A stretch of DNA of 64,000 bases, from contig JAULSN010000006.1 in NCBI GenBank assembly GCA_033439765.1, positions 806,001-870,000 on the forward strand. The letters run 5' to 3'. The DNA comes from Lasiosphaeria ovina. Its lineage: Eukaryota; Ascomycota; Sordariomycetes; Sordariales; Lasiosphaeriaceae. The position numbers and the translations under genes are program-made. The notes beneath the pieces were generated by a model. That model searched no databases. It saw only the letters and a list, made by a program, of their open reading frames with translations, and was not told where the DNA came from. Shown piece after piece: positions 1 through 64,000 of this stretch (its first letter is position 1; each line of letters starts with the position of its first letter).

Positions 1-2782
1 GGCCTACAGCAGCTGTGGGCGGTGGCTGCATAATGTCCCGCTGGCTTGCTTGATATTGGACGCTGGCATACTCACGCCCCGGCATATCCGGTCGGGCGCT
101 GCTGAGCCGGGTTCCGTACTCTCTGGCAACCTCGTAGCGTATTGGCTCAACCCCCCCGGGCCTCACGCTGGCTGATCGTACAGTCGCATACTCCCGGAAC
201 ATCTCGTCCCCTACCCGTCTTTCGTAAGCAACGGGCATTTCGTAGCGAATCCCCTCGGCCGGTCGAACGCTGGCAGCGCGAGGGGCAAACGAGTCGCGGG
301 ATCGCTCTTCAGTCGCCCTAATCTCATATCCTGCAGCACTATCATAGCGGATTGACTCCACCGGTGGACGAGTGCTCGCTGATCTGGCAATGTATTCGCG
401 CGGAATTTCACGGCCTTCCAGGCGACCCCGAGATTGCACGTACTCACCAGCAGGCGGTGCCATTGGCGGGTGACTCGGATGACCCCGTTCCCTGTATATA
501 CGAGAATCGGTCGTGGAAAATTCCGGTTGAGTGACAACGCGCCTCGGGGCCCCATAAGACGGTGAGGCTGGCCGGTACACCACGGCATCATCCTCAAACA
601 ATTCGGGCCTTCGCGAGGCAGCTCGAGCGATTGGCGCTCGCTCGTAAAGTCTCTCCGAGTCTGCTTGGCCTCTAGAGTCCGACACCATACCATCCCTGAC
701 TCCTGTTGCCGAGCGTGGAGGTTCGATATACTCGCGGCCAAAAGAATCAACAATAATGCGAGCCGGCGCCGGTTGCGGAGGGGCCATAGCTGGGGGTGGT
801 CGCTCGTACATAGTCAATGACGGCGACCGCTCGCGATATGCAGGCGGACGTACGGCCATGCCCGGTGGAGCACGGGCATCGTGGTAGTAGGCAGAAGAGT
901 CCCCATAGGGGGCCTCAACGATGTGGGACACAGGCCGCACTGTACGCACCTCCCGGGTGAAATATGGAGCGGAAGGAGTGTTTGGAGAGTCTGGCCGGAC
1001 CTGGTGGGCAGGGGGCGCCGTTCTGGCCTCATCATAGTACACCCTCTCGTATCTTGGAGAGTCAACGATGATGGGCTGTGGGTCGTGACGAGGGCGACTA
1101 TCGTCTTCTCTGCCATATCCGACAGCCCGTCTTTCCCTATGGACGGCTGCTGGGTAAGGCTCTTGGAAGCCATCATCCACCACAACCTGCTGGTCATATC
1201 TGTGGTCAAAGTTGAAGTTGGAATTCTGCTGCTGCAACTGTCTTTGGCGCTTGTTCGGGCGGGCATAAGGGGCTGTCACGGGAGAGCGAGAGCGTGGCTC
1301 AGGTTTGATGTATGGCGACCCACTCGAGGTCCCAGCTGTAGCCGCGGCGTCGGCAGCAAACCGGCCAGCCTTTCTCTTATTTTTCTTGTTCTTCTTCTTC
1401 TCGGCCCCTCTGCTACCCTGCGGGGAGCTTTCTGGGCTGGAGGCAGCAGAGGTCTGCTTCCTCAGTGCAGCAACTTGCGCAGGGGTTGCTCGGCGTGTGC
1501 CGGCGTCTGACAAGTCTATACGGTTTTGCCTAGCAATAGCCAAAGGAGAGACGTGGGCTGGTTGGGGTGCAACAGGAGAGAGATCATGGGCACGAACGAC
1601 AGGAGGTCTTCCGAAGCCGCCCGCCTGGCTGAGCAGTTGCTCGCTGACCCTGGCCAGATCGCGTCGATCTGCAGTCCCCACCATACCCATATTGCTCGAC
1701 TCCCCAGACCGACTTTCTACGCCGCTCCCTCTAGAATCCGTCGTCTCGGGCGGGGCGATCGGCCGGAAAGCTTGGCCAGCACTCGCAGTATCGCCAGATA
1801 AGCCTGGTCTAGCAGACACTTCATCTGGTTGTTGAGGCGCATTTGCGGGGCTTGTTGTATTCGGCAGCAGCTTATTCTGTTCTTGGAGCATTGTTTGTAG
1901 CGGCCTCGAGTCCGGCAAGAATTGGGCGACTTTTTGATGAATAGGCTGCGGGTCTAGCTCAGGCTCGTACGGCGATGCATCTCGCATCTGCTCGTCATCG
2001 GACTCGTCAGGTAAAGGGACGCGCGACAGCTGGTGGGACTGGGGAGTGTCGACCTGGCTCGAATAGAAGGTGTTATCATCGAACGAGTCGCTCGACGCTG
2101 AGGCGTTAGCAGAGGCTTTGACGGGTGTATCGTCAGCAGACTGGGCAGTGGGCGCATCAGCCAGAGACAAGGCTCTCGCCATGACCTCTGTGACATTGAG
2201 CTCGGCTAGCTGCTCCGATGCCTGGAGAGACGCCCTCAAAGCAGCGCGGCGCTGTTCGAGCTGCTCCTTGAGACCTTGCTCGACTCTCTTTCTTTGAAGT
2301 TGTATCTCAGCCTTAATGAGATCATCAGACTTCTCCAGCAAGACAGGGTTAATCTCTGGTTTTCCAGACCCAAAGGGCCGCGACGGCCCGTCTGAAGAGC
2401 TCGAGAGGGTGTCCAGCCCAGGCACTCTAGGAGCCATGTTCACCGACTGCCGTTGCAGAGTCCCCTGGAACGATTGCAAGTCGTCAAGCGCGCGTCGGCC
2501 ACCATTCAGCGTGGCTGGTTTAGCTACTGGCTGGGAGGCTGCTGGCGTCGCAGAGTTGGCAGCATTAGATACGGGTGGCGTGCCAACGCCCTGGGAAGGT
2601 TTGGTAGGGAGATGGGATGGCTTGATGCGCGGGTGTGAACCCGTGATGACCTCGTCGCGAAATTTCAAAACCTTTTCGTACTGACGAATCTGATGGAGCT
2701 CGTCAGGAGCAAGTGCCGTCAATGGCGGCGCGTTGATCGCTCCGCCATTCGAGGCAACCTCACCAGCACCTCTTTGCGCCAT
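1..2782 (-). CDS. large low-complexity nuclear-type protein, 3' end outside window (partial)
   Basis: One reading frame stays open from an ATG at 2782 to the left edge (927 codons, no stop), so the C-terminus is missing. I do not recognise the family. The N-terminus (MAQRGAGEV) leads into a short conserved-looking helical stretch (ALAPDELHQIRQYEKVLKFR, about residues 20-50). A Gln/Glu/Arg-rich coiled-coil follows at about 150-205, then long Ser/Pro/Asp-rich disorder. A Lys-rich stretch near residues 460-470 (KKKNKKNKRK) resembles a nuclear localisation signal. The visible C-terminal third is rich in Arg-Tyr-Glu and contains recurring SxRPxxxIRYE-like segments near 345, 245 and 140. Codon use and an uninterrupted 2.8-kb frame support a real gene. 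It is divergent from the nucleotidase gene at 3568. Function unknown; a nuclear scaffold or chromatin-associated role is only a guess. Confidence 0.8.
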   Translation of the reverse strand, partial: MAQRGAGEVASNGGAINAPPLTALAPDELHQIRQYEKVLKFRDEVITGSHPRIKPSHLPTKPSQGVGTPPVSNAANSATPAASQPVAKPATLNGGRRALDDLQSFQGTLQRQSVNMAPRVPGLDTLSSSSDGPSRPFGSGKPEINPVLLEKSDDLIKAEIQLQRKRVEQGLKEQLEQRRAALRASLQASEQLAELNVTEVMARALSLADAPTAQSADDTPVKASANASASSDSFDDNTFYSSQVDTPQSHQLSRVPLPDESDDEQMRDASPYEPELDPQPIHQKVAQFLPDSRPLQTMLQEQNKLLPNTTSPANAPQQPDEVSARPGLSGDTASAGQAFRPIAPPETTDSRGSGVESRSGESSNMGMVGTADRRDLARVSEQLLSQAGGFGRPPVVRAHDLSPVAPQPAHVSPLAIARQNRIDLSDAGTRRATPAQVAALRKQTSAASSPESSPQGSRGAEKKKNKKNKRKAGRFAADAAATAGTSSGSPYIKPEPRSRSPVTAPYARPNKRQRQLQQQNSNFNFDHRYDQQVVVDDGFQEPYPAAVHRERRAVGYGREDDSRPRHDPQPIIVDSPRYERVYYDEARTAPPAHQVRPDSPNTPSAPYFTREVRTVRPVSHIVEAPYGDSSAYYHDARAPPGMAVRPPAYRERSPSLTMYERPPPAMAPPQPAPARIIVDSFGREYIEPPRSATGVRDGMVSDSRGQADSERLYERAPIARAASRRPELFEDDAVVYRPASPSYGAPRRVVTQPEFSTTDSRIYRERGHPSHPPMAPPAGEYVQSRGRLEGREIPREYIARSASTRPPVESIRYDSAAGYEIRATEERSRDSFAPRAASVRPAEGIRYEMPVAYERRVGDEMFREYATVRSASVRPGGVEPIRYEVAREYGTRLSSARPDMPGREYASVQYQASQRDIMQPPPTAAVG

Positions 2783-3567
2783 GATGTGGGCTTTTCCGTC
2801 TGTCGCCTGCTACCGCAACGGCAGGAGGGAGCTCGCTGCGAAGTATGCAGCTCTGTCTCCAGCCACTGTTCATGAGTGTGCAACAAGCGTAAATGAGAAA
2901 GAAAGAGAGAAAGAAAAAAAAGCAAAAAAAAAAAAAAAAAAAGCTAATGCCGAAATCGCACGCGATGAGTGGGCTATAGAGAAGAAGCCGGATGCCAGGG
3001 AGTGATGGGCGCGTCCTGGTCATGAAAGTTTACGGATTGTTTTGGGAGAATCAATCGTTGTCGGCCACGAAGGCTGGGGTTTGGAGGGACAAATTTCCAC
3101 TGCCTGACCCCGGCAAGAACAGAAAATGCAGGCTGTGCACGGGCCAAGACCTGCACAAGCAAAGCCGCAGTGGGTCTTGGCTGCAGCATCCAAGCCAGGG
3201 CATTCGGCAAACAACACCGTCCATGTCATGCAAGTCGGCCTGAGTCACCTAAATTCAACAAGAGCTGGAAGGCCATATTGAACACCCCAAAAAAAGGCCA
3301 GTGTAAAACAGAGACTCGGGGCAAACAGCACTCGTGTAAGGCAAGGTATGAATATAAATAGTCCCAGAAAAGACTCGACTTGGAATATTAGCACTGATTG
3401 TTCAAAAACCACCATCAAATTACCAGTACCTGCTAGATTCGAAACCTACATCCCACGCTCTTGTCCATTTGAGAGATATCTTGCCTAAACTCAGTTGTCT
3501 ATTTGCATTGTCAAGACTCTGCCATTCTTCACAACACCTGCTTCCGACTGCCAAATACCAACACACC
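2783..3567. promoter_or_regulatory. divergent intergenic promoter region
   Basis: This 785-bp spacer lies between the starts of two divergently transcribed genes (2782 minus, 3568 plus). It contains an A-rich tract with a long A run at about 2924-2942, seen as T-rich from the leftward gene, and a pyrimidine-rich leader just before the ATG at 3568. No convincing ORF was seen. Confidence 0.5.
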
Positions 3568-4498
3568 ATGGAACCCGACGAAGCAGACGCCAATGGAGTG
3601 GAATCCAGCGGCAAGAAAGTCTTCTTTTTGTAAGCACAGGCTACCTACCCGGTCCCGGCCCCTTGATACCAACGGATAAGAATGGGGCTCACTAACATCT
3701 CGAACAGCGATATTGACAACTGCCTCTACCCAAAGAGTGAGTGAAGGGTGGATCCTTCTTTCATGCCGTTGTCCTTTGAACGGGTAGCTGAGACATATCT
3801 AGGTGCCAAAGTCCACGACCTCATGGCGGATCTGATCGACAAATACTTCGCGGCGCACCTGTCACTTCCCTGGGAGGATGCTGTCCGGCTCCACAAGGAG
3901 TACTTCCAGAACTATGGGCTGGCTATCGAGGGCCTGGTTCGGCACCACCAGATTGACCCTCTCGAGTACAATGCCAAGGTCGACGACGCCCTTCCGCTCG
4001 ACGATGTCATCAAGCCCCGTCCCGAGCTCAAACGGCTCCTCGGCGACATCGACAGGAGCAAGGTAAAGCTGTGGCTCTTCACAAATGCCTACGTCAACCA
4101 CGGGCGGCGTGTCGTGCGTCTCTTGGAGGTCGAGGACTTTTTTGACGGCATAACCTTTTGCAACTACGCCTCGGTGCCATTCGTATGCAAGCCGCATTCA
4201 GACATGTACCGCAAAGCCATGATGGAAGCAGGCGTCAAAAACGTCGAAGACTGCTACTTCGTCGGTAAGTGAACCCAATCTGTTGTCGTGATATAAACAC
4301 CAAATCACTGACTCTTTCCCCCCTGGAGATGATTCCTACAACAACTGCAAACAAGCACATGAGCTTGGATGGACGACGACCCACCTTGTTGAGGAAGGAG
4401 TCAAGGTGCCGAGGACTCAAGCATCCAAGTATCAGATACGGCACTTGGATGAGCTGAGGATCGTATTTCCCGAGCTCTTCAAGTCAGGGACGAGCTGA
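3568..4498 (+). CDS. HAD-superfamily pyrimidine 5'-nucleotidase (SDT1/PHM8-like)
   Basis: Four exons: 3568-3629, 3708-3736, 3803-4264 and 4329-4498, total 723 nt, 240 aa. All introns are GT..AG (GTAAGC, GTGAGT, GTAAGT donors) and the joined frame is continuous. HAD motifs are complete. Motif I is FDIDNCLYP (nucleophile Asp22, general acid Asp24), motif II is LFTNA (Thr124), motif III has Lys160 in CKPHSDMY, and motif IV is the VDDSYNN pair Asp185/Asp186, whose codons span the third intron. The helical cap between motifs I and II fits the SDT1/PHM8 family of cytosolic nucleotidases, which dephosphorylate pyrimidine nucleoside monophosphates (PHM8 also lysophosphatidate and other nucleotides). 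Length matches the family. The start is the ATG directly before the motif I exon. Exact substrate is inferred from the family. Confidence 0.9.
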
Positions 4499-4826
4499 GA
4501 GGTTTAGTGCCACATGATGAATGACGTGATAGAGATAGAATACCCAGAACGAGACAGAGTCGTGCATTAAAGTTAATCGACAAACGAAATAAACAAAAAA
4601 ATTCGAAGCAGATTGATCATGCATATGAAGATACCTATAACACCTTTGAACACAAATAGACGGGTATCGATTCCTTCCCCTCCCCCTGTCTCGCCGTTGC
4701 ACCGTGGGATCAAATGTAATGCCAGAGCTTCACCGAAAGACTTTCCCAATTCTGTCCCATGGCCTTCCAAAGATGAATGCACTTATCTCGAGGGCGTTTC
4801 CAACGCATGATCCCCTTCCCCCCAAC
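4499..4826. other. convergent 3' intergenic region
   Basis: This 328-bp spacer lies between the stop of the nucleotidase (+) and the stop of MED21 (-). It is AT-rich in its first half and should hold both 3' UTRs and poly(A) sites. No ORF or repeat of note was seen. Confidence 0.5.
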
Positions 4827-5417
4827 TCAGTTGCGGCGGATACTGCGGAGGACCTGGTCGAGCCTCACCAAGATCTCGTCCTTTTCCTTGATCGCATCGA
4901 GGCGCTGCGCCTCGGCGACCCGGAGCTCCTCCTCGAGGTCCTTGATCAGCTGCTCCTGGTCGTGCTCGCTATTGTCGAGGCCGGGCAGACTCGATATCAG
5001 GTACTCAATCTGCTGCTCCTTGGTGATGAGGTCGCGCGCCAGCTCGAGCTGGCCCGCCTGGAAGACATCGGGCGGGAACGAGTCCACTGTTTTGTGAGTA
5101 ACGCGCCGTCCAGCGCCCCTCCCCGGTTAGCATATTTGAACCCATGCTTCAGGACATAAATACCAAAAAAAAAAGGTGGGTAGTTGCACGCGCTCGGCGC
5201 ATACCTTCTTTGGGGTTATCTTTAAGGTCGTGTATCTTGTCGTTGGGCCCAAAAGTCTCGAGCTCATGGTGGCGCTCGATGTAGTAGTAGCACGCGATGA
5301 ACTGATCCACGAGCTGTCGGCGTATCGTCAACGCCGGCCGCAGCTGAAAAGCAAGTAAATGGCAAGGCTTCTTACCTGATCTGCAGCATCCTGAAGTTGT
5401 GTGAGACGGTCGCCCAT
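4827..5417 (-). CDS. MED21: Mediator complex subunit 21
   Basis: Three exons on the minus strand: 5376-5417, 5205-5313 and 4827-5086, 411 nt, 136 aa. The first exon encodes MGDRLTQLQDAADQ, the hallmark MED21/Srb7 N-terminus. I placed the first intron at 5314-5375 (62 nt) rather than at a nearer AG that would leave only 32 nt, because this joins DAADQ to LVDQFIACYYY as in the family. The remainder is helical and coiled-coil (about residues 70-130), as expected for a subunit that pairs with MED7 in the Mediator middle module. It links activators to RNA polymerase II in the nucleus. It is divergent from RRG7, with 346 bp between the starts. Confidence 0.93.
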
Positions 5418-5763
5418 GTTTGCTTTCCTAACGTTTGACTCTGGCTGGGCGCCTGGCTATTGTGGTTGTGGCAACGTGAAGACGAACTGGTGGTTTTAAT
5501 GTCGTTTTTGAGGTTGACTTCCGGCCGGTTGACTTGGTTGATACAATCCCGCTGCAGGGGTGTGGGGCCGCAAATCGTCGGGTTTATTGAAGCTGTGACC
5601 AATCACACAACGCACTTTGCACTTTAAAGCCTGCTTGCAGGAGAGCTTCCAAAAACTTTGGCAGTTAAAGCTTCTGACCCTCTTCTCCCCTGTGCTATTG
5701 CTCGCTACCCATTTCCCCCCACGGCCAGCAAACACGGCACCAGCTTGCCTGTGTCGACTCGCG
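5418..5763. promoter_or_regulatory. bidirectional promoter MED21 / RRG7
   Basis: This 346-bp region separates the two ATGs. It contains a CCAAT box at 5599-5603 in plus orientation, a candidate Hap/NF-Y site, plausible for a gene with a mitochondrial product but unproven here. A frame at 5617 that runs into RRG7 starts with TTG and is not taken as coding. Confidence 0.5.
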
Positions 5764-6639
5764 ATGCTCTTGCCACGGATACCATGGAGCGCCGCTGCGG
5801 GCTTCTCAGTCGTGAGGTCCTGTCTCGGACTCGGATCAGCAGCTCTTCCCCGGCACAGCTTCTGTACCGGCCGCGCTCTGGCGAAGGAAGACGATGGAGA
5901 CGGGAACAGCAATGCCGACGCGCCAGTGGAGACCTCCACATCCCCTAGTCCTCAGATTGATGTTTCTGGTATTTCTCCCGCTCCTGGACTCACATATCCC
6001 AGCCCCAACACAACGAACCATCACGACCTGGCCTCGTTCCTGTCGTACGCAGAGCGATCCGGCCTGGACCAGAGCTCCAAGGTCTTTGTCGGTACGCACT
6101 TCGAGTACACAGTGGCAGCAACCTTGGCCGCATACGGGTTCGACCTGCGCAGGGTTGGCGGTTCATCTGACTACGGCATTGACTTGCTGGGCACTTGGTC
6201 TGTCCCCCCGTCTCCATCTTCGGCGGGCAGCCCCGTCCACCAGCAACCGCCGTTCAGGGTTCTGCTGCAGTGCAAAGTCACCCAGCAGCCTCGTCCCCAC
6301 CTCATCCGCGAGCTCGAGGGCGCCTTTATCGGCGCGCCCGCTGGGTGGAGAGGATCAAAAGTGCTGGGATTCCTCGTCACGGAGCGCCCGGCCACCAAGG
6401 GTATTCGGGACTCGCTGGGGAGAAGTCGCTGGCCTATGGGGTTCATCTCATGCTCGAGGCTAGGTCATGTCCATCAGATCCTCTGGAACATGCGCGCCGA
6501 AAGTGAAGGCCTCGAGGGCATTGGTGTCGGAATGCGGTACTGTCCACCTCAGGAGGACGGCACAGAGGGCAAAGAGGGCCAGGAGCTTGTCCTCACTTGG
6601 AAGGGCGAACACCTGCCCTACGTCAAACGCGACACATGA
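5764..6639 (+). CDS. RRG7: RRG7-family mitochondrial protein with restriction-endonuclease-like fold (DUF2034)
   Basis: Intronless, 291 aa from the first in-frame ATG. The N-terminus is basic and Ser/Ala-rich (MLLPRIPWSAAAGFSVVRS), as expected for a mitochondrial presequence. The core matches the RRG7/DUF2034 family: GTHFEYTVAATLAAYGFDL (about 110-128), then GGSSDYGIDLLGTW (about 133-146), then VLLQCKV (about 167-173). Together these supply the E...D...QxK residues of a PD-(D/E)xK nuclease fold. Yeast Rrg7 is required for respiratory growth; its biochemical activity is not settled. Pro/Ser-rich insertions before QCK look like linkers. It shares a divergent promoter with MED21. Confidence 0.88.
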   Translation: MLLPRIPWSAAAGFSVVRSCLGLGSAALPRHSFCTGRALAKEDDGDGNSNADAPVETSTSPSPQIDVSGISPAPGLTYPSPNTTNHHDLASFLSYAERSGLDQSSKVFVGTHFEYTVAATLAAYGFDLRRVGGSSDYGIDLLGTWSVPPSPSSAGSPVHQQPPFRVLLQCKVTQQPRPHLIRELEGAFIGAPAGWRGSKVLGFLVTERPATKGIRDSLGRSRWPMGFISCSRLGHVHQILWNMRAESEGLEGIGVGMRYCPPQEDGTEGKEGQELVLTWKGEHLPYVKRDT

Positions 6640-6849
6640 AGTATGAGATTCGTATATCTACCTGGATTAATGATATCCAACAAGCCTGATAGATACGTCT
6701 GCAAAGATGGCCAAACATTACCTCCTCTTCTCTTGAGCAGAGACGTATACATTCGAGGGGGGGAAGACCGTGCGACCTTCGCCCACATCAACAGAAGGAG
6801 AAGATAGAGACATTATGAACATAACCATCCGTGCGCAACAGCAGCAGCT

Positions 6850-52623: not shown

Positions 52624-54771
52624 TCACGACGGCAAAGGGCCAACTGAAACAATCTCGCGGAGCTTCCGTTCATGCTCTTGGTCCACGGCGAGGCTCGCCT
52701 TGTGTCTCCGCTTCTGATCGGCTAACAAGTTGGCGAACCTACCCCGGGCACCGTGCTTAAACTTTGCGATCATATCGGCTGCCTTTCCCCCGGTGAGGTC
52801 CCCTGGCCCGTAGGGTTCTTCTGGAAAAGTCCTGAATTTGTTCAAAAATTTCAATTGACCTTCTGTCGCCGGCCCTTGGCGCCATCTCGTGCCCAGATAG
52901 ATAGTCCCAAAGTAAAACTTTTCTCCGGCGTATTTATCGCAGCCATGCACGGCATCAATAAAGCTTTCTGCAACCAATAGCTGACGCGGAGCTGCATACG
53001 GCGACTTCGACAAGCCGGGCGGTAGAGAACGCACCTCCCAGGCCTTGAACCGGGGCGCACCCGACGTTTCATCATCCTCGACCTTCTCCAGCCTCAAGAA
53101 TGTCCCTGAAGCGCTGTCGAGGACGTAGCGATTCTGGGCCACTTGGACCCAGGCAAACTTGCTAATCGCCCGGATGTGCTTCTCGCCGGATGAATCGGCC
53201 ACCAGGTCAAATACCGAGTCGTATTCGGTGAAGGTAACCTTGTAAGCGCGCCCTGCCGTCTGCGACACGTCGACGGGCTGCTGGGCTAGCTTCTTCACCG
53301 TTTCGTCGGACATGGTGTGGTCCCGAATCTCCTGCATGGTGTTGACTGACGCGGCGTCGAGTAGCTCGGCAGGATCCAGGCCGAACAGCGTAGGAGTCGT
53401 GACAACGCCCGCCTCCAAGCTGGATACCATGTCAATTACATGACAGTTCTCCTTGCCGGGGTGCAGCCTCATTCCCCGCCCGATCATCTGCACGAGAAGG
53501 TTGCGGGACCTCGTTGGCCGAGCCAGGAGGACACAGTCTATGTTAGGGATGTCGGTGCCCTCGGTAAAGACGCCGCAGTTGAGAAGGACGGGGAACTCGC
53601 CTGCCTTGAAGGCATCTAGGCACGCGGATCTCTCGCGCGTGTGAGTACCGCCTGTTACGAACCGGGCATCGACTCCGTAGTGGCGGAACCTCTGCGTCAG
53701 CGAGGCCACGTGGGCGAGGTCGACGCAGAAAACGAGGGTCGACTTCCTTCCCGAAGCCTTGGCAACCCAAGCCCGGACGGTGATGTCGTTGATCTCGTCC
53801 GTGTTGACGGCGCGGGAGAGGGCGGCCGTGTCAAAGTCCCCGCCGCCCCCCTTTCCGAGCCGGCCGACCTTGGAAAGATTTGCCTTGGAGTCAACAGTGG
53901 TGAAAACGGCATCAGAGAGCCACTTCTCGCCAATCATGTCGACATAGTCCTTGTGGTAAACGATCTCGTCGATGGCGGCGCCCAGCGCCAGTCCGTCGAA
54001 TCGAGAAAATGTGGCAGAAACGCCTACCAGGTGAGGCGAAGTGGGCTGCTTAGTCGCCAGGCCCAGGTGGCCCAGGACTCGCAGGTAGCCGGGGGCCACG
54101 ATGTGGTGGGCCTCGTCGACCAGAACCAACTTGAAGCGGTTCGGGTCGAACTTGGCAATGCGGTCCTTGGAGGTCAGGCTCTGGATGCTGGCAACGGTGA
54201 TGTCGGCGGTGCCAGAAGCCGAGAGCTTGGCCATCTCGACTTCGATGGTCTTGTCTGGATAGACGTTTGCGCAGTGTCTCGCGGCCTGCTCGACAAGCTC
54301 CTTTCTGTGGGCCAGAATGAGGGTCTGGGTGGCTGTGGGAGACAAGGGCTTGACACGGTCAATGAGATGTGTGAAAATGACCTTGTTTGCCAGACAGACA
54401 GACTCATGTTAGCACAAGTGCGGACATAGGGGTCAGATGGGGGAACACTGAACAGTGATTGGGATGCTGGTTCATACAGTCTTGCCGCTTCCCGTAGCGA
54501 GTGAGACACCAACGCGCTTGTGGCCCTGGTCAAAGGAGGTCAAGATGGACTGGATGCAGTCTTCCTGGTAGTTACGAAGACGTATGCCGAGGGACGTGGC
54601 TGGCGGGCCATGCGTCTCGTCTTGGCCAGGCACGGGCAACGGACCGGCCGATGATGACCATCGCTGTTGTTGTTTTTGTTGTTGTTGCGATCGCAGTTTG
54701 GCGACTACTAGCATGTGCTTTGTCAGGGGGCTTCGCAGTCTCTGCGACCCGAGGCCAAGAAGTCTCCTCAT
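52624..54771 (-). CDS. IRC3: mitochondrial DEAH/DExH helicase IRC3
   Basis: Two exons, 54478-54771 and 52624-54381, 683 aa. The ATG at 54771 gives an Arg-rich presequence ([19 protein letters not shown]) with a short Gln-rich stretch ([10 protein letters not shown]). Superfamily 2 motifs: Q-like [10 protein letters not shown], Walker A LATGSGKT (91-98, ending exactly at the intron), motif Ia [12 protein letters not shown] (about 186-190), SATFSRFD, and motif [15 protein letters not shown] (about 393). The long C-terminal region ([32 protein letters not shown]) matches Irc3. Yeast Irc3 is a double-stranded DNA helicase that remodels branched mtDNA and supports mitochondrial genome stability. 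It is divergent from the HET gene. Confidence 0.94.
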
Positions 54772-55876
54772 GGCAGCAAAGCAGGCCCTTTTACTCTATT
54801 TTGGTTGTCTTGTTGCTCATTCATCCCGTCTTTGCAATGCAACACTAGCCGATGTCGTTGGAGTTTGGGTTGAGGCTGAGCGTATTCCGTACTGTGCAGA
54901 GAAAAAGGGTGCAGTCAGAATGCGTAGCTTTCTATTGGCCGCAACGCCTACTTATAAAAACATGGGCGGAATCTACACCTCTCCTAGGATTTAAAACCAT
55001 ACTGCGGTGACTTTTTTGATACGGGATATAAGCCTGAAATACAGGGGGTTTGAAGTCACTTTTCTAGCAGGTTCTTCCCAAAAAAGTCACCAAAGGTCAC
55101 GTGGTGGCTTGATTGTATCACGCTATGGTACCGAGGGAGCAGTACCTAACACAGCTGACTGCTAAATAGGCCTCACACTCTGCAGGGCCATCAGTGGGCC
55201 TCAGCTTCAGCTCACATGACGGATCGACTTGAACCATCTGAAGCCCGCAACCAATTGGGCGGCCACGTCGGGCTTGTTTCATTGTGCACCTTGTCTGAGG
55301 CACAATACGATCGGAACAGCTACTGATCTGGGCTGGCCCTGAGCCTCTTGTAGATTCTACTGCGACATGAGCAGGGGCGGTCTGCGTGGCAAAAACAGGC
55401 ATTATTATTGGCCAGCACGAGAAAGAAATGCAGCCCCGTCTCCTGCTTTCGCGGCGGCACGTGATTTTTCAAACCACAAAATGCGGGTCTCCGAGGGGTT
55501 GGGCTTCCTCTAAGAGCCTTTCGTTCCTCAAGGCATTCCTCGAGGCATTGGGCAGCACCTCTGCGTTCACGTGCCCTCAGCATAGCCACGATAGGCGTAT
55601 GCGCTCTTTTTCTCAGCTACCCCACCGTTTCTCCCCAACCCCGTCCTGCCCAACCTCATTCCAGCTGCCTTCTGATGTGACGAGACCGGCATTCACTCAT
55701 ACCATTTCATGACAGACAAAATACCAAGAATAGAGCAACGACCTTGCAAGTGTTCGTTTCTACCAGATCTAGCGACCGGCTGGCACTCTTCACCCCGAGC
55801 GCAGATTAGATGACCGTCGAGAGTATTGCTCTAATTAAGAGCCCAACCCAAACTACCAAGGCTGCTTTTTACCAAA
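54772..55876. promoter_or_regulatory. divergent intergenic region IRC3 / HET gene
   Basis: This 1.1-kb spacer separates the IRC3 start (-) and the proposed HET-gene ATG at 55877 (+). The last 150 bp are moderately AT-rich and end ACCAAAATG, a good fungal start context with A at -3. No supported ORF. Confidence 0.5.
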
Positions 55877-58800
55877 ATGGTAAGAGCTGATCATAGTTGG
55901 GCATACTGCTTCGCTGATTTGATGACTGACTGAGGGATCGGTATCCGGTATAGGAAGTAAGTAAACCTGGGCCGAGTATGGCATGCCGCTTCACTGATTT
56001 GATGACTGACTGAGGGATCGGTATCCGGTATAGGACGTAAGTAAACCTGGGCCGAGTATGGCATGCCGCTTCACTGATTTGATGACTGACTGAGGGATCG
56101 GTATCTGGTATAGCGAGTAAGTAAACCTGGGCCGAGTATGGCATGCCGCTTCACTGATTTGATAACTGACTGAGGGATCGGTATCTGGTATAGTTTGTAA
56201 GTAAACCTGGGCCGAGTATGGTATACCGCTTCACTGATTTGATGACTGACTGAGGGATTGGTATCCGGTATAGGACGTAAGTAAACCTGGGCCGAGTATG
56301 GCATGCCGCTTTACTGATTTGATGACTGACTGAGGGATCGGTATCTGGTATAGCGAGTAAGTAAACCTGGGCCGAGTATGGCATGCCGCTTTACTGATTT
56401 GATAACTGACTGAGGGATCGGTATCTGGTATAGCCTGTAAGTAAACCTGGGCCGAGTATGGCATGCCGCTTTACTGATTTGATAACTGACTGAGGGATCG
56501 GTATCCGGTATAGGACGTAAGTAAACCTGGGCCGAGTATGGCATGCCGCTTCACTGATTTGATGACTGACTGAGGGATTGGTATCCGGTATAGCTTGTAA
56601 GTAAACCTGGGCCGAGTATGGCATGCCGCTTCACTGATTTGATGACTGACTGAGGGATTGGTATCCGGTATAGGACGTAAGTAAACCTGGGCCGAGTATG
56701 GCATGCCGCTTTACTGATTTGATGACTGACTGAGGGATCGGTATCTGGTATAGCGAGTAAGTAAACCTGGGCCGAGTATAGCATGCCGCTTCACTGATTT
56801 GATAACTGACTGAGGGATCGGTATCTGGTATAGCCTGTAAGTAAACCTGGGCCGAGTATGGCATGCCGCTTCACTAATTTGATAACTGAGTGAGGGATTG
56901 GTATCTGGTATAGTTTGTAAGTAAACCTGGGCCGAGTATGGTATACCGCTTCACTAATTTGATGACTGACTGAGGGATTGGTATCCGGTATAGCTTGTAA
57001 GTAAACCTGGGCCGAGTATGGCATGCCGCTTCACTAATTTAATGACTGACTGAGGGATTGGTATCCGGTATAGGACGTAAGTAAACCTGGGCCGAGTATG
57101 GCATGCCGCTTCACTGATTTGATGACTGACTGAGGGATCGGTATCTGGTATAGCGAGTAAGTAAACCTAGGCCGAGTATGGCATGCCGCTTCACTGATTT
57201 GATAACTGACTGAGGGATCGGTATCTGGTATAGCCTGTAAGTAAACCTGGGCCGAGTATGGCATGCCGCTTCACTGATTTGATAACTGACTGAGGGATTG
57301 GTATCTGGTATAGTTTGTAAGTAAACCTGGGCCGAGTATGGTATACCGCTTCACTGATTTGATGACTGACTGAGGGATTGGTATCCGGTATAGCTTGTAA
57401 GTAAACCTGGGCCGAGTATGGCATGCCGCTTCACTGATTTGATGACTTACTCTGATCACGACTTTCAACGTTTATAGCGGAAATATGTCTACGAACCTCT
57501 TCGCCACGAAAATTCCGAGATTCGTCTCCTTACGTTAACCCCTCCCACATCCGACAGTACGACCTTGGAGTGTAGACTGTCACATGTTCCCCTACCGAAG
57601 GCTCCACGGTATATCGCACTATCCTATCACTGGGGTGATCCAACGGTCACGATCAACATCAAAGTCAACGGCAGAGAGATTGGAGTTACCGTCAGCCTCG
57701 AAGCCGCTCTACAACGATTGCGGGCTGCAGGGTCATATGTTGTCTGGGCAGATGCATTGTGTATCAACCAAACAGACAAGCAAGAAAAGAGCCTCCAGAT
57801 TCCTAGGATTAGCGCAGTCTTCAGAAAGGCATATGAGGTGGCCGTCTGGTTGGGTGATGACCTCGGCATCGATGAAACCTCTAGAGAGTACCTGCGTGCT
57901 GAGACGGCTCCGAAGCTTGAGGGAGATACCTGCCTCTCAACTCTCCCCGTGTTCAATTCCCTGCTTGATCGGCCATTCTGGAGACGTGTCTGGATCATTC
58001 AGGAACTTGCTGTTGCTTCATGCATTACTCTCTACTGTGGACCTTACCGAATTCCATGGAAAGCAATTGACGCCAGTTGCAATTGCTGCCAAAATGGAAA
58101 CCTTATCAATCTTCGAGGGCGTCTGGCGGATGAAAATGTTTGCAGATTCACAATGCTACGTGGAGTCCGAAAGAAGGTTTTAACTCGGCAACCGATTCGC
58201 TTGTTGGACGCCCTCCACCGTACCAGATCTTCTTTAGCGACGGATCCACGGGATAAAATTTTTGCCCTGCTTGGGCTCACGTTCGACGCCCAACACTTCG
58301 TTCCGGAACCAAGCTATATGGGTTCGGTCTCAGATAGCTTTCGGGAGTTTGCGACTTCGTTGCTAGAGAGCAATGAGCCCCTTGACTTCATCTATCTAAG
58401 GAGTGCTAATCGGAAAGTGGGTGCAGAGCTGCCCTCGTGGGTGACTGACTGGACCGATCTTGACGATCCTGTTGCTCACCGGCAATTCGAATACATCATG
58501 GCTCTCGAAACGCCTGTTCCCGAAGATCCGGATACTGACAGAGACGCGGTAATATCAAAATCTGGTCTCGAGCTGGAAGCTAGAGGTGTTCTGTTTGACA
58601 CTGTAGACGGCTTAGGGACCGCACTCGCCATGGATTCTGGAGACGTTTCCGCCGACGAAATTGCAATCACACACAACTTGATAACGCCCTACAGCTCAGA
58701 GGATGAAATATCTTCTATTATTCACAAAACTCTGGTGTCGGCCGAATTACTCCCTGGCGATCAATGCAAGATATCAGACGGCCTTCACGGAGACTTTCAT

Positions 58801-59244
58801 CACCTTTGGAGTATAGAGACTCCACAACAATTGGAGGAACTTTCGACTGTCGTCTCATCAGCTCCATCAAACTCAATCTGTATCTGGCTTGCGGAGAACC
58901 GGTCTTTCATCGTGTACGGACGGACGATCGAGTGGTGGACGAAGCGGTGGAGCTTACTGGGGACTGAAAGTAACTCCGTTCAGGATGCGCGTCATTTCTT
59001 CAACGCTATTCAATCCCGTATGCGACTTCTCATGACGGAAAAAGGTTATCTTGGGTGGGCACATCCACAGACAAGGAAAGGGGACAAAGTTGCGATTCTT
59101 TTTGGATGCAGTAGGCCTGTTATACTGCGAGTATGTCAGGGTGGCTATCGTATTGTGGGCGATGCCTGTCTTTCGGGGCAATCGATTGACGGACTACGGA
59201 AGATAACCGTTGATGAGAAGGTTGAAAATGTGCGAATCCTGTAG
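55877..59244 (+). CDS. HET-domain protein whose 5' end is a tandem array of single-codon micro-exons
   Basis: The body, 57478-59244, is one exon encoding a heterokaryon-incompatibility (HET) protein: KYVYEPLRHENSEIRLL, ALSYHWGD, VWADALCINQTDKQ, AVWLGDD and WRRVWIIQELA, with the domain at about residues 60-195. No second domain was recognised in the remaining 400 residues. In frame, the body is closed upstream by TAG at 57475-57477, which is also the end of a TTTATAG acceptor, so a start must lie upstream. The proposed model has exon 1 ending ATG at 55877-55879 directly followed by GTAAGA. Nineteen 3-nt exons follow, at 55954 and every 80 nt to 57394, then the body: 1827 nt, 608 aa. Order: E-D-R-F-D-R-P-D-L, then D-R-P-F-L twice. 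HET proteins trigger cell death on non-self fusion. HET identity is secure; the splicing model is inference. Confidence 0.75.
55901..57447 (+). repeat. 80-bp tandem array, 19 full units plus a partial, each an intron plus one codon
   Basis: Period is exactly 80 bp with no indels. Each unit contains, in order, GCATGCCGCTTCACTGATTT, ACTGAC, GTATCCGGTATAG, a variable triplet, GTAAGTAAACC and GGGCCGAGTATG. Units 10-14 and 15-19 show a five-unit higher-order repeat (400 bp) with triplets GAC, CGA, CCT, TTT, CTT. Outside the triplet nearly all differences are transitions (GCATGCC/GTATACC, CCGG/CTGG, GATCG/GATTG, GATGAC/GATAAC). Unit 13 has ACTGAG in place of ACTGAC. The flanking introns share only half a unit each: the first (55880-55953, 74 nt) has a unique 5' half, the last (57397-57477, 81 nt) a unique 3' half. 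Confidence 0.98.
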
Positions 59245-62447: not shown

Positions 62448-64000
62448 CTACACGCCACTTCCAAAAATCTCATCCAGCCGCGTTCTCCGCTCCCACACCA
62501 CTGCCCCGTTGCTGCGCCGCTTGAAATACAGGATGCGGTGCTGCGGGATAAACTCCTCGTCCGTCTGTTCCGTCTTCCACGCGTCGAGCGGGCGCTCGCA
62601 CGCCCCAACGAACCGGTCCTCATATCCGACTAGGAAGTCGCCCTCGGCGAACCCGCCGTCCCATCGCAGGCGGTTCATTACATCCGCTGCCGTGCGGAAC
62701 TTGCGCCCCGTGTCGAGCTTCACGGCTTCCTCGGCTTTCTTGTTGTTCTTGGCGGCTCTCTTCTTGCTCCTCCGCCTCTTGGCCTCCTCGTGGCTGAGGA
62801 CGCCAAAGCCGAGCCCGTCGTCGTCTTCGTTATCGTCCGCGCCATAATCTTCATCGTCGTCGCCGTCGTCATCCTCATCATCATCCTCGGACGACGAGAA
62901 CTCGTCCCCGGGCGTGTAGTCTCCCCACTCGCGCGCGTCAACCTCGAACCGAGCGGTGGCGGCTGCCAGCTCGCGCCCTTTGACAATCTCGGCGCCGATC
63001 CAGCTCGACTTGGCGTCGTAGTACCGCTCGTCGCCGCGCATCTGCTCCTCGAACCGCCCCAGCGCCGTCTGCACGCCGCCCAGCGCGAGCTTGATGTCCT
63101 CGCGGCTGGTTTTGGTTTTATTGTCAGCGACGTCGGCCACGTCCAGCCCGATGAGGTAGCAGCCGCGGTATTCGCGGGTTGCTGTGCCGTCGTCGTCTTC
63201 GTTGTCGCTCTGCCGGTCGGGGGGGGAGGAGGAGGAGGATGCTGGCGCGTCGGCGTCAACCTCGACAAACCGCGCGGGCCACATGCGTGCGTGCAGCGCG
63301 GGCGCCCGCCGCGCCAGGTCGACTAGCAGCATGACGCAGCGGCTCTCGAGCCAGCCGACAAACTGCTGGCCTTTGGCGAGAGACAGGCCCCAGTACTGCA
63401 CTTCGATCTTGACGTACGTCTTGTACGCGGCGAGGAAGGCCGTGGCGGGCGCCGTCTCGGGGGCGAGGAACGATGTCCATGTGGTGGTGGTGCTTCTTTC
63501 CCCGTCGCCGCCGGAGAGCAATGCCGCCGCACGACGGAACTCGTCGGCGATGGTGCGCGTCGAGGGCACCGAGGCGGCGTGCGCCGTGTTGAGCGCGGGC
63601 GGGAAGTAGCCGAGGATGGCAAGCGGCTCGCGCGCGGCGTTGCGCGAGTAGGGGGGCTGCGGGTGGGCGCCAGAAGAGCGATGGAACAGCGGGTCAAAGA
63701 CCATCTGCGTCGCCCAGTCGAACGTGGCGTAGTGCTGGAAGAAGGACACGAGAATGTCCCCCAGCGAAGGCGTTTCTCGGGAGGAGGGCTGCTGCTGCGC
63801 GAGCAGCTTGCACACGCGCGCCAGCAGGATGGAGATCTGCACGCCCCCGAGGAACCCGAAGCGCGCCGCGTAGATGCCGCGCGACCGCGCCCACGTCTTG
63901 ACGAACCGGTGCGCGGCCCGGAACGCCACCGGGTCCGGCGCCGACCGCGCCAGGTAGTCGGCGTCGCGCGCCGCCTTGAGTTTGGCCAGCGTGGACGCCG
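62448..64000 (-). CDS. poly(A)-polymerase-central / MJ1316-domain protein (5' part outside window)
   Basis: The frame is open from the right edge (64000) to a stop at 62448, about 517 codons. The start lies outside and the codon at 63929 is only a GTG. The visible N-terminal part matches the poly(A) polymerase central-domain type: FRAAHRFVKTWARSRGIYAA, GFLGGVQISILLARVC, and DILVSFFQHYATFDWATQMV. An RNA-binding-like middle follows, then an acidic linker (SSSEDDDEDDDGDDDED) and a basic block (KRRRSKKRAAKNNKK). The C-terminus is the MJ1316 RNA cyclic-group end-recognition domain: TAADVMNRLRWDGG, VGYEDRFVG, EEFIPQHRILYFKR and RLDEIFGSG. Fungal proteins of this plan often also carry phosphoesterase domains upstream. 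RNA-end processing or repair is a reasonable inference; the substrate is unknown. Confidence 0.88.
   Translation of the reverse strand, partial: ASTLAKLKAARDADYLARSAPDPVAFRAAHRFVKTWARSRGIYAARFGFLGGVQISILLARVCKLLAQQQPSSRETPSLGDILVSFFQHYATFDWATQMVFDPLFHRSSGAHPQPPYSRNAAREPLAILGYFPPALNTAHAASVPSTRTIADEFRRAAALLSGGDGERSTTTTWTSFLAPETAPATAFLAAYKTYVKIEVQYWGLSLAKGQQFVGWLESRCVMLLVDLARRAPALHARMWPARFVEVDADAPASSSSSPPDRQSDNEDDDGTATREYRGCYLIGLDVADVADNKTKTSREDIKLALGGVQTALGRFEEQMRGDERYYDAKSSWIGAEIVKGRELAAATARFEVDAREWGDYTPGDEFSSSEDDDEDDDGDDDEDYGADDNEDDDGLGFGVLSHEEAKRRRSKKRAAKNNKKAEEAVKLDTGRKFRTAADVMNRLRWDGGFAEGDFLVGYEDRFVGACERPLDAWKTEQTDEEFIPQHRILYFKRRSNGAVVWERRTRLDEIFGSGV

Follow-up and report, generated by a model that had tools for sequence, protein, structure and literature searches.

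Array layout and the HET gene

The window analyzed here is a 64,000-nt stretch of Lasiosphaeria ovina DNA (C29:806001-870000) that harbors a gene with a HET domain, which in its family triggers cell death in fungal self/non-self recognition, together with a tandem array of closely spaced splice signals upstream of it. The relevant features are as follows.

55877..55879, + strand: proposed first coding exon (ATG, 3 nt), with the donor GTAAGA directly after it, in phase 0 with the triplets and the gene body; putative translation start
55880..55953, + strand: predicted first intron, 74 nt, with a unique 5' part and an array-like 3' part
55954..57396, + strand: array of 19 predicted one-codon exons alternating with 18 internal introns of 77 nt each
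55954-55956, then every 80 nt up to 57394-57396, + strand: the 19 predicted one-codon exons
57397..57477, + strand: predicted last intron, 81 nt, with an array-like 5' part and a unique 3' part ending in TTTATAG
57478..59244, + strand: HET gene body, 588 codons plus stop, in phase 0 directly behind the last acceptor
57610..58005, + strand: HET domain (PF06985), body residues 45-176, E 6.1e-26

The HET match reaches 92 bits against a Pfam cut-off of 22.5, and the domain search of the body found HET alone, with no NACHT-ANK combination. A search of the window for TATAG-NNN-GTAAGT returned 19 matches, all on the + strand between 55949 and 57402 and at constant 80-nt steps, compared with a mean of 0.00 over 100 dinucleotide shuffles. 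All 19 micro-exons that a first-pass annotation had placed in 80-bp units 5' of the HET frame were recovered in this way, and the spacing of exactly 3 nt between TATAG and GTAAGT that it had reported is exact in 19/19. TRF described the same region as an 80-nt period with 19.4 copies (55900-57451, 93% matches, without indels). All 20 introns start with GT and end with AG; the length of 77 nt initially attributed to them applies to the 18 internal ones, and the first (74 nt) and last (81 nt) depart from it. Similarly, the ACTGAC motif said to lie about 24 nt before the AG of each unit is present in 18 of the 20 introns, where the A of the motif stands 24 nt ahead of the end of the intron, and is absent from the last intron and from the intron at 56837; the intron at 56757 contains one additional internal TATAG. 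The longest donor-acceptor-donor chain elsewhere in the window has 5 donors vs 20 in the array when exons of 1-30 nt are allowed.

In order, the triplets are GAA GAC CGA TTT GAC CGA CCT GAC CTT GAC CGA CCT TTT CTT GAC CGA CCT TTT CTT, translating to E D R F D R P D L D R P F L D R P F L, with stop codons in 0/19. The 3' end of the array holds two complete copies of a D-R-P-F-L block, and the introns of this block are repeated along with the codons.

Joining of the HET frame to an upstream start

The ATG directly followed by GTAAGA that had been noted before the first unit is indeed present at 55877, and the HET frame adjoins the terminal TTTATAG of the last intron, the body beginning with CGG at 57478. 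This ATG is in phase 0 with the body whether zero, some or all triplets are included, and the single 608-codon frame proposed earlier is stop-free over its 1 + 19 + 588 codons. Three other ATGs lie upstream at 55675, 55709 and 55810; the frame from 55709 closes at 55811, and the out-of-frame ATG at 55810 closes at 55888, overlapping the proposed start.

A TAG triplet stands immediately 5' of the first body codon, and the body has no in-frame Met before residue 226, which lies C-terminal of the HET domain; the HET frame therefore requires a start joined by splicing. Furthermore, those homologs of the window gene whose models extend that far conserve a YxPL...EIRLL-like stretch directly behind the last acceptor (YEPL...EIRLL in the window), so that an upstream exon must be joined to the body. 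Both observations, as well as the triplet-specific variation described below, speak against regarding the array as a non-coding minisatellite or promoter repeat whose intron likeness stems from one ancestral intron, with transcription starting downstream. Such an origin would suit the clean 80-bp tandem repetition and could draw on the ATG at 57584, which is in another frame; we consider it very unlikely.

Predicted one-codon exon arrays elsewhere in the genome

Pattern searches were extended to the whole genome (51.7 Mb, 32 contigs). The arrangement GTAAGT-intron-YAG-3nt-GTAAGT was found 61 times and its reversal 7 times; the 61 matches comprise 18 in the window array, 25 in an array on C27, 2 + 11 in the two parts of an array on C28, single matches at C27:5323 kb and C23:985 kb, and 3 unrelated singles. 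When the exon length was widened to 0-30 nt, 172 matches vs 111 reversed were obtained among the matches listed, and subtraction, on the assumption that each place is counted once, leaves 111 vs 104 for exon lengths other than 3 among the matches listed. By this subtraction, the excess of donor-acceptor-donor pairs lies at exon length 3, with no clear excess at other lengths. The GTATGT version of the pattern yielded 7 matches vs 0 reversed, one of them belonging to the C28 array, and the GTGAGT version 5 vs 6; no new arrays with GTATGT or GTGAGT donors were found genome-wide. The further arrays are located as follows.

C27:2336667-2338558, - strand: array of a second HET gene, 25 matches to the 3-nt-exon pattern
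C27:2332001-2342000, positions ~4625-6790, - strand: second HET gene with its array, 29 predicted one-codon exons and 67-nt introns
C28:3289 kb (4210-4447 of the piece) and C28:3296 kb (2367-3285 of the piece), + strand: decayed array in two parts, 3 + 12 donors

In the second HET gene, 29 one-codon exons are predicted (GAG + 28), separated by introns that measure 67 nt except for one of 63 nt; 28/28 array donors have TAG 3 nt before them, at a spacing of 70 and once 66. Exon 1, whose frame is open for about 200 codons further upstream, ends with MAPTAAQGIGWIHDDFE, the body begins with ILWKRSIALGFLSELLP, and exon 1, the 29 one-codon exons (predicted insert EALLLDDLLDRVDEWLDLRRRLRLDRVDD) and the body are all in phase 0, with the HET match at C27:2335918-2336352. 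A chain search with exons of 1-30 nt split this array into chains of 16 + 14, assigning exon length 1 twice and 19 once where an AG was nearer. In the larger part of the C28 array, a 3-nt exon is predicted in 12/12 at spacings of 69-72. Predicted exon length is thus constant at 3 nt across loci with varying intron length (74/77/81 in the window, 67/63 on C27, spacings of 69-72 on C28).

The two parts of the C28 array appear to be one array interrupted by the insertion of a repeat element that is about 6.9 kb long and has GTGTA at each edge; the same exon-1 motif, WIHDDFE, lies upstream of the array, and no HET body was noticed behind it. The C27 intron-repeat unit occurs at five places in the genome, namely one array and four partial or decayed copies. 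Those at C27:5323 kb and C23:985 kb are short decayed pieces with a similar upstream flank, and the former has WD40-like open frames downstream.

The window intron unit gave 20 matches genome-wide, all within the window array. Its core alignment with the C27 unit scores about 2 sd above shuffles, so that the two units may or may not share a common descent. A HET family search of the genome returned 150 scored matches from 315 candidates, and the best 30 of these 150, with 1.5-kb flanks, contained no further arrays, the longest chain having 4 donors vs 20 in the window. No match was found in a plasmid collection, and no relative of the window HET body was found in viral contigs, where the loose array pattern occurred in at least 120 stretches with one match each among the matches listed. 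According to a passage of PMC12258605, L. ovina has, with 162, more NLRs than any other of the Sordariales studied there.

Hypervariability confined to the triplets

Per-site pairwise comparisons were made between 18 of 19 aligned units of the window array (the last unit being dropped because its intron end differs), 26 of 28 units of the C27 array (short unit and last unit dropped), and 9 of 12 units of the decayed third array on C28. Window triplets differ by 0.231 transitions and 0.473 transversions per site and pair (total 0.704), compared with 0.041 and 0.0014 (total 0.042) for the introns, in which 1 column in 77 carries a transversion; triplets therefore exceed introns 17-fold in overall differences and 328-fold in transversion density. 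The corresponding transitions + transversions are 0.172 + 0.473 (total 0.645) for triplets vs 0.075 + 0.0011 (total 0.077) for introns in the C27 array, and 0.213 + 0.352 (total 0.565) vs 0.127 + 0.0098 (total 0.136) in the decayed third array. In each of the three arrays, no other 3-column window varies as much as the triplet. A plain minisatellite was rejected on this ground, since the variation is specific to the triplets.

Transitions at CpA/TpG are the mark of RIP in Pezizomycotina, and RIP acts as a mutator in the hypervariable repeats of fungal NLRs. Variable intron columns fall at TpG/TpA or CpA/TpA in 8/11 cases in the window array and 14/18 in the C27 array; TpG and CpA together make up 11 of the 38 G+C positions of the window consensus. 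Transitions are thus concentrated at CpA/TpG, and the variation of the intron repeats looks RIP-like. With transversions specific to the triplets and introns that change almost exclusively by transition, it is improbable that the triplets arose from the same process as the changes in the repeats.

The diversity of the codons beside near-identical introns may reflect either diversifying selection or intron insertion between older codons. In the latter case, a mobile intron copy would have been inserted between existing codons and later homogenized, so that triplet diversity would be old exon sequence; such a history is compatible with codon-by-codon splicing. The introns are nearly free of transversions and look too young for the diversity of the codons that they flank, and the C27 array unit also occurs at other loci in the genome. 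However, the window unit is found nowhere else in the genome, and codon and intron variants are linked in its array: identity between introns is 97.9% where they follow equal codons, compared with 95.4% (p 0.0002), and preceding introns are linked as well (p 0.001). In the C27 array, the preceding intron is linked to the codon (p 0.0002), and the following one not significantly (p 0.061). On balance, we regard intron insertion as rather unlikely. The linkage of codon and intron variants, together with the repetition of D-R-P-F-L with its introns, indicates instead that much of the window array grew by duplication of unit blocks.

Deposited protein models and homologs

The deposited L. ovina model of the second HET gene, P0121, reads ...WIHDDFE-VRRPCYWTTYC-WLQFC.... 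An exon-chain search of its first 45 residues on the C27 DNA, which allowed GT/GC donors, AG acceptors and introns between 40 and 2600 nt, gave one minimal solution with 11 introns and 12 exons, including nine consecutive predicted one-codon exons (GAG GCC TTG TTA TTG GAC GAC TTA TTG). Under the same flanks with GT donors and at most 16 introns, no solution was obtained for 150/150 shuffled and 150/150 other 11-mers. Given these controls, the annotation behind P0121 most probably spliced nine one-codon exons. The model nevertheless looks mis-framed: exon 1 is extended by GTAAG, the nine one-codon exons are read out of the predicted frame, and the chain then depends on an exon of 1 nt and an intron of 1527 nt; no solution exists when introns are limited to 200 nt or less. 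For these reasons, P0121 may be a gene-finder product.

A search for homologs of the C27 gene found 1185, of which the best 120 were listed and 39 aligned. The exon-1 motif is present in 12/39. In 7 of these 12, only 2 residues separate the motif from the conserved W of the body; the distance is 7 residues in P0147, 14 in P0128, 17 in P0126 and 24 in P0137, and the twelfth is P0121. In the seven homologs with a near-direct join, skipping of the whole array, or its absence, is possible. This pattern, in which exon 1 is joined almost directly to the body, is what would be expected if 55880-57477 were removed as one long intron, either directly or with nested inner introns, so that the triplets would never enter the mRNA and the protein would start M-RKYVYEPL. 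The ATG-CGG join is in frame, and P0006, a homolog of the window gene, begins MDHFYQPL without an insert. However, non-coding triplets should vary like the neighboring repeats and have instead diverged 17-fold more, largely by transversions; exon length has been kept at 3; and P0121 contains nine one-codon exons. Removal in one piece would also need an intron of 1598 nt holding 19 consensus acceptors, which would be unusual for a fungus. We therefore judge whole-array removal to be quite improbable.

In frame 0, the C27 intron repeat translates to ...MDEMVMIADLGVCGG.... A peptide pattern built from this repeat after the homolog alignment had been viewed matched the very N-terminus of 15 of the best 120 C27-gene homologs, compared with 0 of the best 120 window-gene homologs and 0 in 20 shuffling rounds. 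The array architecture would account for such odd N-termini in public HET models, as these 15 seem to start inside an intron repeat, and related repeats very likely precede the HET body in the species concerned. Names among the C27-gene homologs include Immersiella, Parachaetomium, Podospora, Parathielavia, Triangularia, Lasiosphaeria hispida, Rhypophila, Canariomyces, Schizothecium, Fusarium and Cladobotryum; we take Fusarium and Cladobotryum to belong to Hypocreales and the other genera to Sordariales. Over residues 1-170, the model P0152 from Fusarium falciforme reads through several tandem intron repeats, and its protein letters suggest exons of 3 or 6 nt, the reading frame itself forcing multiples of 3. 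With residues 1-200 of P0152 as query, the protein itself was the sole match.

Comparison with known systems

The first-pass annotation knew of no described system with such an architecture. This claim does not hold: passages of PMC3689799, PMC4986451, PMC10197012 and PMC9815663, citing Iotti et al. 2012, describe NACHT-ANK (nank) genes of Tuber melanosporum with dozens of codon-sized 3-bp mini-exons that are alternatively spliced. As far as these passages tell, the L. ovina genes resemble the truffle genes in having tens of one-codon exons per gene (19 predicted in the window, 29 on C27) and in belonging to the fungal self/non-self recognition class, with internal exons predicted to be exactly 3 nt in 19/19 cases in the window and in 28/28 plus GAG on C27. 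They differ in that, for truffle, a passage of PMC9815663 describes the diversified part as what may be the recognition domain at the C-terminus of an NLR, whereas the array here precedes a HET domain and is found in Sordariomycetes. Judged by these partial accounts, codon-sized microexons are known already, and what appears to be new is the HET domain instead of NACHT-ANK, the N-terminal position of the array and the near-identical introns. No description of a one-codon exon array in a HET gene was found in the literature searched, which covered few subscription papers or bioRxiv preprints.

Other systems share single aspects. Fungal NLR repeat genes (e.g., WD40) also contain highly similar internal repeats, which undergo exchange and reshuffling according to passages of PMC9815663; their repeats are coding, whereas here it is an intron that repeats, with a single codon as its payload. 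Stwintrons, described in Hypoxylaceae and other fungi, are likewise sequence-similar introns, and they are removed in consecutive steps, as proposed here (PMC12403724, PMC8469720 and PMC9024468, in part). Unlike stwintrons, in which one intron splits the splice signal of another, 20/20 window introns are intact and lie 3 nt apart, with no external splice signal interrupted by an internal intron. In recursive splicing, ratchet points also place an acceptor beside a donor and allow stepwise removal, with which the 3-nt spacing is compatible, and the 1-nt exon of Arabidopsis indicates that extremely small exons can be spliced (passages of PMC8605326 and PMC4674806); unlike at ratchet points, the codon between acceptor and donor would here remain in the mRNA, 19 times in succession. 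The Xlr2 microexon of Trichoderma virens is another microexon of a filamentous fungus, and a regulated one, described singly there and predicted in an array here (PMC11121469, in part). Introner-like elements would occupy many independent gene positions as near-identical introns, whereas all 20 matches of the window unit lie in its array and the C27 unit is present at five places.

Proposed mechanism and implications

The size and phase of the triplets, the splice signals, the HET body and the variation specific to the triplets are all directly observable in the DNA, and from them we infer that triplets are included in transcripts. It is probable that intron-by-intron splicing inserts as many as 19 residues (EDRFDRPDLDRPFLDRPFL) behind the initiator Met and ahead of the HET body. 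At the level of sequence, the earlier proposal of a HET N-terminus encoded codon by codon has good support from hypervariability confined to the triplets, a fixed length of 3 nt, a second HET array and the P0121 model; its extension to mature mRNA is the inferential part. Each intron of 74-81 nt would be recognized as a unit (intron definition). As an acceptor and the next donor are 3 nt apart, they could hardly be bound simultaneously, and neighboring introns would be taken out one after the other, with every splicing step bringing a fresh GTAAGT next to the new junction, as in recursive splicing. Any triplet could be skipped without a frame shift, so that one gene could yield HET proteins with many different N-terminal tails, from 0 to 19 residues long. 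Going by the HET family, this tail is predicted to form a variable segment beside the domain that triggers cell death in self/non-self recognition. The repeated D-R-P-F-L block suggests unequal exchange between near-identical repeats, which would change the number and order of codons between alleles.

More tentatively, and with the odds somewhat against it, the array might represent a reorderable codon library. Every copy of the intron repeat would bring a single codon with it, unequal exchange would reshuffle these codons and add to their number while RIP wore down the introns, and by including a variable set of at most 19 codons, all in frame, one HET gene would produce many N-terminal tails. 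It would then act as a codon-level combinatorial generator on an allorecognition death effector, present in HET genes of several Sordariomycete lineages and parallel to the truffle NLR microexons.

If transcripts include the triplets, the N-terminus of a fungal self/non-self recognition effector domain would be assembled codon by codon, and these genes would provide both a test of how the spliceosome handles 19 (or 29) successive one-codon exons and a genetic system in which recombination inside introns shuffles codons. Triplet inclusion would also suggest that the microexons of truffle NLRs are no single oddity.

The array-encoded LDRPF (last array codons, 57314-57480) recurs in the HET body as LLDRPFW (57961-57981). 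A 5-mer is shared in 385/20000 codon-order shuffles (about 2%) and in 38/5000 body shuffles; the likeness was spotted post hoc, and mimicry is not claimed. On either side of the HET gene, the open reading frame at 52624-54345 (- strand) corresponds to a helicase, and that at 62448-63929 (- strand) contains poly(A) polymerase central and MJ1316 domains.
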